64,000 nucleotides of DNA from Pyruvatibacter sp. HU-CL02332 (GTDB lineage Bacteria > Pseudomonadota > Alphaproteobacteria > CGMCC-115125), in NCBI RefSeq assembly GCF_040362765.1, contig NZ_BAABWK010000001.1:2023501-2087500 (forward strand), given 5' to 3'. Position numbers and translations under genes: made by a program. Below, in pieces: positions 7,292 through 11,607 of the stretch (position 1 is the first letter of the stretch; each line of letters starts with the position of its first letter). The notes under the pieces were generated by a model, which did no database searches, was not told the origin of the DNA, and worked only from the letters and a program-made list of their open reading frames with translations.

Positions 7292-9556
7292 ATGTCAGAC
7301 TACGAAAATTTTGGATTTGAAGTTGATGGAGACGGCATTGCCGTTGCCACATGGGATATGCCCAACCGCTCAATGAACGTCCTGAGCCAGTCCTCCATGA
7401 AGGACCTCTCGGACATCATTGAAAAAGTCGCCTCCGACGACGCCATCAAGGGCCTCGTCATCACGTCAGGCAAAGGCGCATTTTGTGCCGGTGCTGACCT
7501 CTCCATGATGAGCTCAAACTCAGGTGGCGGCTCTGGTGGGTCCGAGCAGGACAAGGTGAAGGCACTCTATGAAAACAACCTCGCCTTCAACATGCAGCTT
7601 CGCCGCATGGAAAGCTGCGGCAAGCCAATTGCAGCAGCCATTCCCGGCACAGCGCTTGGCGGTGGCCTTGAAGTAACGCTCGCCTGCCATGCCCGCTTTG
7701 TGGCGGACAATCCGCGCGCCCAGCTGGGTCTGCCGGAAAGCAAGGTTGGCCTTTTGCCCGGCGGTGGCGGCACACAGCGTCTGCCGCGCATGATTGGTGC
7801 AGCTGGCGCTCTGCCTCTCATCCTGCAGGGCACAGCGCTCTCACCTGAAAAGGCAGCAGCGGCTGGCATCGTCAATAAGGTCGTTGCCGGTGACAAACTG
7901 GTGGACGAAGCCAAGGCATGGATCAAGGAAGGTCTTGCCGGCGAAACCATCAAGCTCGGCAAGCGTGGACCCGAAGTCCTCGCAGCGGCTCTGCAGCCAT
8001 GGGATCGCCCCAAGTACCGCATCCCAGGTGGCGGCCCGCACGACAAGAACGGCGGCTCGACCTTCACCATGGCCAACGCCATGCTGAACAAGACCACGCA
8101 CCAGAACTACCCGGCGCAGCAGTACATTCTGGCAGCCGTGTATGAAGGCATTCAGGTGCCCATCGAAGCCGGTCTGCGGATTGAAAGCCGCTACATGACC
8201 AAGCTGATGATGGATCCGCGCTCCAAAGCGATGATCCGGTCGCTCTTCCTCTCCATGCAGGAACTCTCCAAGGGCGCACGTCGTCCCGCGGGCGTTGATA
8301 AGTGGGAAGTGAAGAAGCTCGGCATTCTCGGTGCCGGCATGATGGGCGCAGGCATTGCCTATGTGTCCGCCAAGGCTGGCATGGACGTTGTGCTGCTGGA
8401 CCGTGATCAGGCCGACGCCGACAAGGGCAAGGCCTATTCCGAGGGTCTGCTCGACAAGGCCATCTCCCGCGGCAAGTCCACGGAAGAAAAGAAGGCAGCA
8501 TTGCTCGGCAAGATCAAAGCCACGACCAACTATGACGATCTGGAAGGCTGCGACCTCGTGATCGAGGCCGTGTTCGAAGACCGCGGCATCAAGGCCGACG
8601 TCACCAAGAAGGCCGAACCAAAGATCGCCAAGGGCGGCATCTACGGCTCCAACACTTCGACCCTGCCGATCACCGGCCTGGCCGAAGCGTATAGCAAGCC
8701 TCAAGAGTTCATCGGCATCCACTTCTTCTCCCCTGTGGACAAGATGCAGCTGGTGGAAATCATCATGGGTGAACAGACCAATGATGAAACCCTCGCCAAG
8801 GCCATGGACTATGTGGCGCAGATCAAAAAGACCCCGATTGTCGTCAACGACAGCCGCGGCTTCTACACGTCACGCTGCTTTGGCACCTATGTGAGCGAAG
8901 GCATTGCCATGCTGGCGGAAGGCATCGAGCCTGCCATCATCGAAAATGTCGGCAAGATGACAGGCATGCCCATGCCGCCACTGGCCCTCAACGACGAAGT
9001 TTCTCTCGACCTCGGCTACAAGGTGCGTCAGCAGACCAAGAAGGACCTGGGCGACAAATATGTCGAAGGTCCCGCTGACAAGATCGTCGAAGAGATGGTT
9101 GTGACCCATGGCCGTCTTGGCAAGAAGGTCGGCAAGGGCTTCTACGACTGGCCGGCAGAAAAAGGCGGCAACAAGCGCCTGTGGCCGGACCTGCACAAGG
9201 TCGTGGAACACACCAAGACCATTGATGACGTGGACACGGACGAGTTGAAAAACCGCTTCCTGTTCATCCAGGCTCTGGAAGCCGCCCGCTGCTTTGAAGA
9301 AGAAGTAGTGACAGACGTCCGCGACGCAGACGTCGGCGCCATCCTCGGCTGGGGCTACGCCCCATGGTCCGGCGGACCGCTGTCGCTCATCGACATGACG
9401 GGCACAGAAAAGTTCGTCGCTGAATGCGACAAGCTCGCCCAGAAATACGGCGACCGCTTCAAGCCGAACGCCTTGCTCCGCGACATGGCCAGCAAGGGCG
9501 ACACCTTCTACGGCCGGTTCAACCCGGCAGCAAAGGTGGCAGCCGCTGCTGAGTAA
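7292..9556 (+). CDS. fadJ: FadJ/FadB-type enoyl-CoA hydratase / 3-hydroxyacyl-CoA dehydrogenase
   Basis: The 754-residue multifunctional protein has an N-terminal crotonase domain (CAGADLSMM and GTALGGGLEVTLACH oxyanion-hole motifs, then PESKVGLLPGGGGTQRLPR), and a C-terminal 3-hydroxyacyl-CoA dehydrogenase with an NAD-binding GAGMMGAG at residues 347-354 and the IHFFSPVDKMQLVEI catalytic motif. It hydrates enoyl-CoA and oxidises the product to 3-ketoacyl-CoA. I set the start at the ATG at 7292, preceded by GGGAG at suitable distance. A longer frame starting at 7160 overlaps the thiolase gene and lacks support. It is the last gene of the operon; a strong terminator follows. Confidence 0.93.
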   Translation: MSDYENFGFEVDGDGIAVATWDMPNRSMNVLSQSSMKDLSDIIEKVASDDAIKGLVITSGKGAFCAGADLSMMSSNSGGGSGGSEQDKVKALYENNLAFNMQLRRMESCGKPIAAAIPGTALGGGLEVTLACHARFVADNPRAQLGLPESKVGLLPGGGGTQRLPRMIGAAGALPLILQGTALSPEKAAAAGIVNKVVAGDKLVDEAKAWIKEGLAGETIKLGKRGPEVLAAALQPWDRPKYRIPGGGPHDKNGGSTFTMANAMLNKTTHQNYPAQQYILAAVYEGIQVPIEAGLRIESRYMTKLMMDPRSKAMIRSLFLSMQELSKGARRPAGVDKWEVKKLGILGAGMMGAGIAYVSAKAGMDVVLLDRDQADADKGKAYSEGLLDKAISRGKSTEEKKAALLGKIKATTNYDDLEGCDLVIEAVFEDRGIKADVTKKAEPKIAKGGIYGSNTSTLPITGLAEAYSKPQEFIGIHFFSPVDKMQLVEIIMGEQTNDETLAKAMDYVAQIKKTPIVVNDSRGFYTSRCFGTYVSEGIAMLAEGIEPAIIENVGKMTGMPMPPLALNDEVSLDLGYKVRQQTKKDLGDKYVEGPADKIVEEMVVTHGRLGKKVGKGFYDWPAEKGGNKRLWPDLHKVVEHTKTIDDVDTDELKNRFLFIQALEAARCFEEEVVTDVRDADVGAILGWGYAPWSGGPLSLIDMTGTEKFVAECDKLAQKYGDRFKPNALLRDMASKGDTFYGRFNPAAKVAAAAE

Positions 9557-9581
9557 GCTGGTCTTGTAATGCCATGCAAAT

Positions 9582-9612
9582 CGGGGGGCCCTGCAACTGG
9601 CCCCCCGTTTTT
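9582..9612 (+). terminator. Rho-independent terminator of the merR-fad operon
   Basis: Perfect 9-bp arms CGGGGGGCC and GGCCCCCCG enclose an 8-base loop and are followed by five T residues. It lies 25 bp behind the fadJ stop and directly before the end of the convergent small gene. Confidence 0.85.
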
Positions 9613-9811
9613 AATCTTGATTTTCTGTTTTTGGTTGGAGGCTAGATAAGCCGCTTTTCACAAGTTCGCTTCGCAAAAACTCTCTAGCTGATTCCAGTTC
9701 CGATGATGACATTGAAAATGCATTGCGGTCGTTTGAGACCACCTTCTTCTGACTACCATTCACCGGCAGCAACATTGGTATCTGTCGCCTGTCAGACAAG
9801 GATGCGCCCAT
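9611..9811 (-). CDS. Small unrecognised protein (66 aa) coupled to the dCTP deaminase gene
   Basis: I do not recognise this protein. It starts at ATG 9811, only 22 bp after the avcD stop, and a near-perfect AGGAGG Shine-Dalgarno lies 7 bases before the ATG, so it is well placed to be translated with avcD. The protein is polar, with LLPVNGSQKK in the first third and a Ser/Glu-rich helix-like stretch (SSSELESAREFLRSELVK) near the C-terminus; it has no signal peptide or membrane segment. A longer frame from 9856 overlaps avcD and lacks an equally good ribosome site. Base composition matches the AT-richer avcD and not the flanking operons. A role as an accessory or regulator of the defence enzyme is inference from position only. 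Confidence 0.6.
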   Translation of the reverse strand: MGASLSDRRQIPMLLPVNGSQKKVVSNDRNAFSMSSSELESAREFLRSELVKSGLSSLQPKTENQD

Positions 9812-9833
9812 CTTACAGTTCCTCCTTTTGCCG

Positions 9834-11384
9834 CTACTTGTTTTCCATACCCTCAACTTGGTTCACGATCAACATCTCTCGGTGAGTAAAACCATCGAGT
9901 GGTGGCATGACAGCAGGAAGTGCTGATTTTTTACTGACAACGATTGCCCTTCCTCCTTGTTTTCTCGGCGCGCCGCTATTGAAAAGACGTTCAACATTTC
10001 TAGGCGCAACGCCTTCATATTGAAGGAACTGAACTTTGTTACTAGCGCTTGTATCGGCGCATATCGCGTCATCATGCAGTCGAAGAGCAAGGCTTTTCGG
10101 GTAGGGTTCGATGTAGGTCACTTTGTCGATTCCAGCTGCAACAATGTGCCTGGCGCAGCTGTGGCAGGGATATGCGGTGCTATAGAGCGTCGAGCCGACC
10201 AATCCGTTTTTCCCGCCGCGGGCCACAGATACAATAGCTTCCATTTCGGCGTGCACGGCCCTCGAAAACTCAATGAGGTTTTTAATTTTTGATTTCGATA
10301 CCATCTCACGAACAACGTTGTCGTCAATAGTGTTGTCGAGACACCCTGAGTCTTTCAGTGTACTGACGATTTCATCGTATATTTTTCCCTTATTGTCGTC
10401 ATTGTGGCAGATGCCCATGGCGTGCCTGAAGCAGCGATGATCATTGTCACGATCATTGTCCTCGTAGAGGCTGCCCCCGTACTTTGGCACATCATTCCAT
10501 CCGAGACCGATCATCTCTCCAGGTTCCGATACGATCGCTGCGCCAACTGATCGTGACAGGCAGGAAGAGCGGGCTGCCGCTGTCATGGCTTCAGCCATTG
10601 CCCATTCGTCTCGAGTTGGTGGAACTATTTCAGTTCCAAAAATGAGATCCAGAAAGCGAGCTGAAGTCGTTTTGAATTTGTTGGCTGCGCCGTCATTTCG
10701 AATAAAAAAGTCCGCTAGATGGGAGGTGTCTCGAACTTTCTGTCCGAATTCCTCCTTTTCGTCCTCATCATGACGAATAATCTGGTCGAGTGTGTCACCG
10801 TTGCTGCCATTCTTCTCCAGCCGATTTTTGCGGACGTCTTCAGGAGCAAATACAGCTATCAACCAGAATGAGTCGCCGTAAACCTGACGTAGGAGGTTGA
10901 ACTCGCTCGGGTGCTTTATTGAATCGATAAGGATGGCACGTCGGATTCCAACAGGCGGGCTCACTTGTGAATCTGAAGCTGGCTCTACGTAGCCCCCGTC
11001 AGCTTTTCTTGATAGCGCGACTTTCTCGATCACTTTTTTGGTGAGATAATCGCTACCAAATTTGTTTCTCAGAGAATTGCCCAGCTCCTGCAGATCTCTA
11101 GTTCTTTCCGCTCCTGACTCGGCAACATCCTTTGGGTCGGCAACCATATTGCTACAATCGCGGATCACGTTACTCACTTTGTGAAACTGCGTTTTGTAAC
11201 CGAAGTCCTCTTTCAATATCCGCTCAAATTCTTCAGCTACAGAAGTAACTCCTGAGCCGATTGGACCGACAAAACCCAGAACAATCTCAGGATTGACCCG
11301 GTCTTTCAATTCATAGGTTGCCAAAGCACTGCTTGACGACTCGGTCTCTATTTTCTCTTCTGACCGTTTTACTGGTGCGGACAC
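9834..11384 (-). CDS. avcD: Anti-phage dCTP deaminase (AvcD family): P-loop domain fused to deoxycytidylate deaminase
   Basis: The 516-residue protein has an N-terminal P-loop nucleotide kinase-like domain (GPIGSGVTS at 40-48, with Val where a Walker-A Lys would be, and an ILIDSIKHP strand at about 151-159) and a C-terminal zinc deaminase domain. Zinc ligands are H378 in HAEMEAI and C407/C410 in PCHSCARH; E380 is the proton shuttle. This fusion is typical of AvcD-type defence enzymes, which deplete dCTP/dCMP by deamination when a phage shuts off transcription. Ordinary dCMP deaminases lack the N-terminal domain. The start is GTG at 11384 with GGAGAG seven bases upstream. GC content is lower than in the neighbours (about 46% over four 60-base lines I counted), suggesting acquisition by transfer. 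Confidence 0.88.
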   Translation of the reverse strand: MSAPVKRSEEKIETESSSSALATYELKDRVNPEIVLGFVGPIGSGVTSVAEEFERILKEDFGYKTQFHKVSNVIRDCSNMVADPKDVAESGAERTRDLQELGNSLRNKFGSDYLTKKVIEKVALSRKADGGYVEPASDSQVSPPVGIRRAILIDSIKHPSEFNLLRQVYGDSFWLIAVFAPEDVRKNRLEKNGSNGDTLDQIIRHDEDEKEEFGQKVRDTSHLADFFIRNDGAANKFKTTSARFLDLIFGTEIVPPTRDEWAMAEAMTAAARSSCLSRSVGAAIVSEPGEMIGLGWNDVPKYGGSLYEDNDRDNDHRCFRHAMGICHNDDNKGKIYDEIVSTLKDSGCLDNTIDDNVVREMVSKSKIKNLIEFSRAVHAEMEAIVSVARGGKNGLVGSTLYSTAYPCHSCARHIVAAGIDKVTYIEPYPKSLALRLHDDAICADTSASNKVQFLQYEGVAPRNVERLFNSGAPRKQGGRAIVVSKKSALPAVMPPLDGFTHREMLIVNQVEGMENK

Positions 11385-11607
11385 GTAACGCTCTCCAAAT
11401 TTTCAGTCAATGTGACTGTCGCCATAGTACATAACTGGTTGTAGGCTGAATAGGGAAGATGCCGAATTGCAAATTGGGAGCTGGTTTACTAGCCAAATGG
11501 TTGGTTTGCAGCGAAATGCGTACTCCTCCCAACTGTTGCTAGCGACTGGCACCCTGGTTGATGGGCGAAGTACATCTGCAGTTTTGAGGCATAAAGCGAG
11601 GGACACA
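11385..11607 (-). other. avcD upstream region; candidate site of an AvcI-like inhibitory RNA
   Basis: In characterised AvcD loci a short inhibitory RNA (AvcI) is encoded just upstream of the deaminase. Here 223 bp separate avcD from a divergent gene. The stretch is AT-richer than the surroundings and contains several short inverted repeats, including CAGTCA and TGACTG (11404-11409 and 11413-11418) about 20 bp before the avcD start. No protein frame is convincing. I cannot recognise AvcI by sequence, so this is only a candidate. Confidence 0.3.

Follow-up and report, generated by a model that had tools for sequence, protein, structure and literature searches.

A conserved small-protein gene behind an AvcD-type anti-phage deaminase, with a possible tie to the replication clamp

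A key unresolved issue for defences that deplete nucleotides is how they sense the moment to act. In the AvcID systems of Vibrio and E. coli, described as type III toxin-antitoxin systems, the deaminase AvcD is paired with an upstream RNA, AvcI, which restrains it (PMC10511110); in this description AvcD is a toxin kept in check by an RNA, and the RNA disappears upon infection. The locus examined here, within a 64,000-nucleotide stretch of Pyruvatibacter sp. HU-CL02332 (the window), raises the question of whether an AvcD can have a protein as its partner. A preliminary description, made from the sequence alone, had read an avcD gene at 9834-11384 followed after 22 bp on the same strand by a 66-codon ORF with an AGGAGG Shine-Dalgarno, and had stated that the described partner of AvcD is an RNA. 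Direct reading upheld the first statement, and the second agrees with PMC10511110 and PMC12409362. The following features are concerned.

9834..11384, minus strand: avcD, anti-phage dCTP/dCMP deaminase (NF041025 and PADLOC dCTPase)
9611..9811, minus strand: small AvcD-partner gene, 66 codons (profile homology, conserved position, third-position substitutions)
9821..9826, minus strand: Shine-Dalgarno AGGAGG, 9 nt ahead of the small-gene ATG (direct reading)

The deaminase and its genomic slot

The window AvcD scores 459.3 bits against NF041025 (anti-phage dCTP deaminase), exceeding the curated cut-off of 400, and matches the PADLOC dCTPase model at E=1.7e-157. It joins an N-terminal P-loop kinase-like domain (GPIGSG) to a CMP/dCMP deaminase domain (HAE ... 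PCHSC), and among 25 aligned relatives the zinc-ligand and catalytic H, E, P, C and C are invariant and the P-loop G nearly so. The AlphaFold2 model (pLDDT 81) contains both the P-loop and the deaminase folds, and its Foldseek matches are dCMP deaminases and one adenylate-kinase-related protein; structure searches found no solved structure of a full-length AvcD. By family, this is a true anti-phage dCTP deaminase, as the preliminary description had it, while dCTP deamination and phage restriction are inferred from sequence. As the PADLOC model is longer than the window protein, we considered a split C-terminus; this was rejected, since relatives have a complete AvcD and a separate ORF.

The gene sits, together with the small ORF, in an interval that differs between members of the genus.

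9557..11607, no strand: variable slot flanked by two conserved host genes and containing avcD, the small gene and the stretch upstream (comparison with same-genus genomes G121 and G225)
11385..11607, minus strand: region upstream of avcD with room for an AvcI-like RNA (no Rfam match; folds like its shuffles)

Homology to G121 stops at window position 9556 and resumes at 11607, G225 also differs, and in both genomes the slot holds other genes. Because the interval is replaced in these two genomes, avcD and the small ORF can be said to share a variable slot. The two also look foreign together, as GC at third positions is 0.49 in avcD and 0.46 in the small ORF, below the 0.73 of the neighbouring fadB-like gene. 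One same-genus slot (L026, 3773-6058) holds three genes, the last of the dCTP deaminase/dUTPase family (DCD; Pfam E=1e-30) and preceded by two unknown ORFs of 151 and 416 aa; a second nucleotide-based defence may occupy the hotspot there. A second (L027, 4018-5853) holds a toxin-antitoxin-like pair with an HTH protein and a Hypoth_Ymh protein.

The 222 bp available upstream of avcD gave no Rfam match and no fold beyond that of shuffles (z=0.31, 11385-11606), with no AvcI model used. Conserved upstream stretches from six locus pairs were tried as AvcI candidates and set aside, being host genes where coding was clear (xylA-like, hemB); no AvcI-like RNA was found among them. In one locus (L071) the upstream hemB ends about 28 nt before avcD, so that in some members of the clade a separate RNA gene would not fit. 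The window locus resembles AvcID in its deaminase, which is homologous to AvcD with NF041025 above cut-off, and differs in having a downstream small protein gene; an AvcI-like RNA was not detected upstream, where there is space for one.

A small gene conserved behind avcD

The avcD stop codon (TAG, 9834-9836) and the small-gene ATG (9809-9811) are separated by 22 nt, and the product is 66 aa long: MGASLSDRRQIPMLLPVNGSQKKVVSNDRNAFSMSSSELESAREFLRSELVKSGLSSLQPKTENQD. It had no meaningful match in Pfam, PADLOC or NCBIfam, and single-sequence searches with it were empty in viral contigs, plasmids and 142 relatives. The family is visible only through avcD neighbourhoods and profiles, and the gene has been overlooked by standard annotation and defence models despite being a conserved component. 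A protein partner of AvcD is likewise undescribed in the open-access literature searched, although mention in Hsueh 2022 or Tal 2022 is not excluded.

Loci with avcD were gathered from a draw of 385 alphaproteobacterial genomes, 80 related loci from public genomes selected for similarity of their AvcD to that of the window, eight plasmid loci and a phylum draw of 249 genomes. The preliminary description had named the absence of a homologue beside any other avcD as part of what would refute it. That search was run and did not refute it: an ORF of 46-93 aa lies directly downstream of avcD in 73 of the 80 related loci, starting between -41 and +45 bp relative to the avcD stop and overlapping avcD in 41 of 74 measured cases. 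These loci come from Pseudomonadota, Bacteroidota, Nitrospirota and Myxococcota. Among the remaining seven, avcD is truncated in L059, three loci (L037, L068, L101) are broken by a frameshift or stop, and no small ORF was found beside avcD in L041, L090 and L099. The small ORF of L037, from a Roseovarius MAG, is still readable despite the frameshift in avcD, which reads through into it. We considered L037 as a natural AvcD/small-protein fusion and rejected it, as the DNA shows a frameshift near an A run at the end of avcD; whether sequencing error or real, it is no designed fusion.

The ten AvcDs closest to that of the window, picked by AvcD identity alone, supplied their neighbouring ORFs for a profile from which the window was excluded. 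Against a background of 573 window ORFs and 300 shuffled copies, this profile recovered the window ORF at E=1e-5, the best decoy reaching 0.11. A 15-row profile gave E=5.1e-10, its rows having been chosen with the sequences in view. The window ORF thus satisfies both terms by which we define the family, lying downstream of avcD and being homologous to ORFs of related loci. A whole-family profile of the 76 other ORFs fails to separate the window ORF from its shuffles, and homology across all subclades therefore rests on position, motif and intermediate profiles. In nine family pairs, changes at codon positions 1, 2 and 3 number 121, 115 and 247, and this piling up at third positions marks a translated gene. 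No second copy of the small gene was found by profile search in the 385 alphaproteobacterial genomes, a search of limited reach into divergent subclades.

These data show that the small gene is real, conserved and positionally coupled to avcD, and that its product follows a two-part plan. That it belongs to a widespread family of small proteins co-inherited with this AvcD clade is well supported.

A hexapeptide, a helix and a tentative clamp adaptor

Members of the family share a layout in which a few N-terminal residues lead into a hexapeptide and a linker of variable sequence connects this to a helix at the C terminus; they are small and mostly basic (median pI 9.7). Only M1, Q10 and G54 are invariant in a 16-row alignment, with L50 nearly so.

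9767..9784, minus strand: codons for Q10-I-P-M-L-L15 (QIPMLL), a match to the beta-clamp consensus (sequence, published consensus, family statistics)
9653..9706, minus strand: predicted C-terminal helix, residues 36-53, the proposed AvcD-binding part (AlphaFold2)

The published consensus for binding the beta sliding clamp is Q-phi-x-[L/M]-[F/L] or Q-phi-x-[L/M]-x-[F/L], where phi is aliphatic (PMC13254535). The window QIPMLL fits the second form exactly, though it is a weak-looking version, with proline at position 3 and leucine at position 6. Across the family the hexapeptide reads Q-[LM]-x-[LF]-x-[FL] about ten residues from the start (median start residue 10). A broad pattern finds it in 67 of 77 members, whereas 300 shuffles gave 4.3 on average and never more than 10; the exact published consensus is met by 32 of 77 (1.7 in shuffles), and a widened one, allowing M at position 2 and F at position 4, by 56 of 77 (2.5 in shuffles). 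Exact and widened matches all fall within the first 22 residues. The broad pattern is missing in about 10 of the 77 and completely absent in three (L073, L077, L091), and the small avcD-adjacent proteins of two other AvcD clades do not carry the motif (0/7 and 0/7).

The helix at residues 36-53 is the only secondary structure that AlphaFold2 predicts for the small protein, with pLDDT of about 93 over residues 41-50. Its types (GIF, RIL..F and IY) track the AvcD clade while the hexapeptide stays unchanged, which suggests that the helix meets a diverging AvcD and the peptide a universal target. This is the simplest reading of the anatomy, and it is inferred.

A similar peptide is known near the N terminus of Hda, where QLSLPL binds the clamp in E. 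coli, and of Caulobacter HdaA, which has QFKLPL (PMC3836487). The window protein shares this Q-phi-x-phi-x-phi peptide and its placement; it differs in being 66 aa long, mostly disordered, without an enzyme domain and in a defence operon, and its clamp binding is inferred.

We propose that the small protein is an adaptor between the clamp and AvcD that regulates the deaminase, a reading that we place at roughly 0.42, just short of an even bet. Binding to the clamp, binding to AvcD and the way in which control runs are all inferred. QIPMLL, in the disordered N-terminal part, would occupy the peptide cleft of DnaN, the beta sliding clamp, and AvcD would be bound by the C-terminal helix. The small protein would in this way link the dCTP deaminase with the replication clamp and control the enzyme. 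In healthy cells it may restrain AvcD, which would be released or activated when a phage alters the availability or use of the clamp. Equally compatible is the opposite direction, in which the small protein would recruit active AvcD to replication forks, and the direction of control is a guess. As AvcD needs restraint and no AvcI-like signal was found upstream of the window avcD, a small protein that acts as a clamp-reading brake would replace AvcI economically. The clamp-binding reading is limited by the lack of binding or phage data and by the shortness of clamp motifs; possibly the Q-hydrophobic strand docks instead on AvcD or elsewhere. The preliminary description had suggested a regulator, sensor or adaptor without mechanistic evidence and without noticing the hexapeptide. 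Such a role fits a clamp-motif-like peptide joined to a clade-specific helix; it is not shown.

The main rival, which remains possible, is that the small protein is a type II-like protein antitoxin inhibiting AvcD in AvcI's place, the hexapeptide docking on AvcD or serving as a protease tag; neutralisation is inferred here as well. In its favour, unrestrained AvcD is toxic (PMC9455884, PMC10511110), so that a clade without AvcI needs some brake. L071 has no space for a separate RNA gene between hemB and avcD, no RNA signal was detected upstream of the window avcD, and the partner is a small, mostly basic, single-helix protein. Against it, no element is better conserved between phyla than the hexapeptide, which fits a known ligand consensus, whereas both AvcD and the helix diverge. 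A strand docking on AvcD would be expected to co-diverge with AvcD and is for that reason disfavoured. Antitoxins are also often, if not always, encoded first.

Alternatively, the small protein could activate AvcD as a subunit or serve it as a phage sensor, with the hexapeptide binding a conserved protein other than the clamp, a reading that draws on the same anatomy and clade-specific helices. We consider it unlikely, as the motif statistics closely fit the published clamp consensus. That the small ORF is spurious or a decaying fragment is supported only by failed single-sequence searches and the absence of curated families, and is all but excluded by the profile homology, codon-position signal, conserved position and Shine-Dalgarno.

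If most AvcDs of this clade carry the clamp-peptide protein instead of an RNA, the trigger may be replication itself. A bolder extension of the clamp-adaptor reading, on which we would also bet slightly against, is that this large clade consists of two-protein systems whose small protein would plug the deaminase into the host replication clamp, the state of replication triggering or directing depletion, and that the small neighbours in other clades would be alternative trigger modules. A parallel is Clover, with its dNTPase CloA and regulator CloB (PMC12265719). Both pair a nucleotide-depleting defence enzyme with an operon-encoded regulator, whereas CloB is an enzyme making a nucleotide signal and the AvcD small partner has no enzyme domain. 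A clamp-binding defence adaptor is undescribed in the open-access literature searched. On a practical note, cloned avcD genes from this clade may have been assayed without their partner.

Neighbours of avcD in other clades

Neighbour types cluster strongly on a tree of 111 AvcDs. Type A, with the clamp motif (77 rows), requires 4 changes, where shuffles require 29. Type C, with the DUF488-like neighbour, is a single branch (support 97), and type U, in which a small ORF precedes avcD, is confined within one branch. Three other AvcD clades have different neighbours, which are a small protein with WxxW in one, a DUF488-like protein in another and, in the third, a small ORF ahead of avcD in the AvcI region. 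Besides the window, the alphaproteobacterial draw yielded 15 loci, with two of type A, five of type B, six of type C and two without a neighbour. Type A was unseen in the phylum draw of 249 genomes, where a small ORF with W as its last residue lies ahead of avcD in two loci and a DUF488-like gene is present in three. Type A is thus the rule within this AvcD clade and not for AvcD overall, bearing in mind that the 80 related loci were selected by the similarity of their AvcD to that of the window.

The Enterobacteria/Vibrio-type AvcDs form a clade separate from that of the window and have their small ORF upstream instead. It comprises 56-74 codons just ahead of avcD, where AvcI RNA is described, and was seen in seven loci: L108 (1212-1397), L109 (1172-1342), L111 (ending at 1365), L112 (705-887), L113 (1219-1401), L116 (ending at 1381) and L118 (ending at 1310). 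Each of the seven has W as its last codon before the stop and a similar final helix. Identity is higher in the ORF frame, at 29% compared with 17-18%, and substitutions are most frequent at third positions. In these loci the AvcI region may encode a protein besides the RNA.

In another clade a protein of 53-65 aa follows avcD (L006, L008, L011, L012 and L114; less clearly L009 and L115), most of these having a W(P/S)xWK/M motif and none the clamp motif. A DUF488-like protein of 150-200 aa with IIDxRxxP follows avcD in L004, L005, L007, L010, L013, L015, L122 and L123. No Pfam family was found in these proteins except TIR, a TIR domain being fused to the DUF488-like protein of L005. In several of these DUF488-like proteins a peptide resembling the clamp motif (QLDLF, QSNLF, QLALPY or QLSFPY) immediately precedes the domain.
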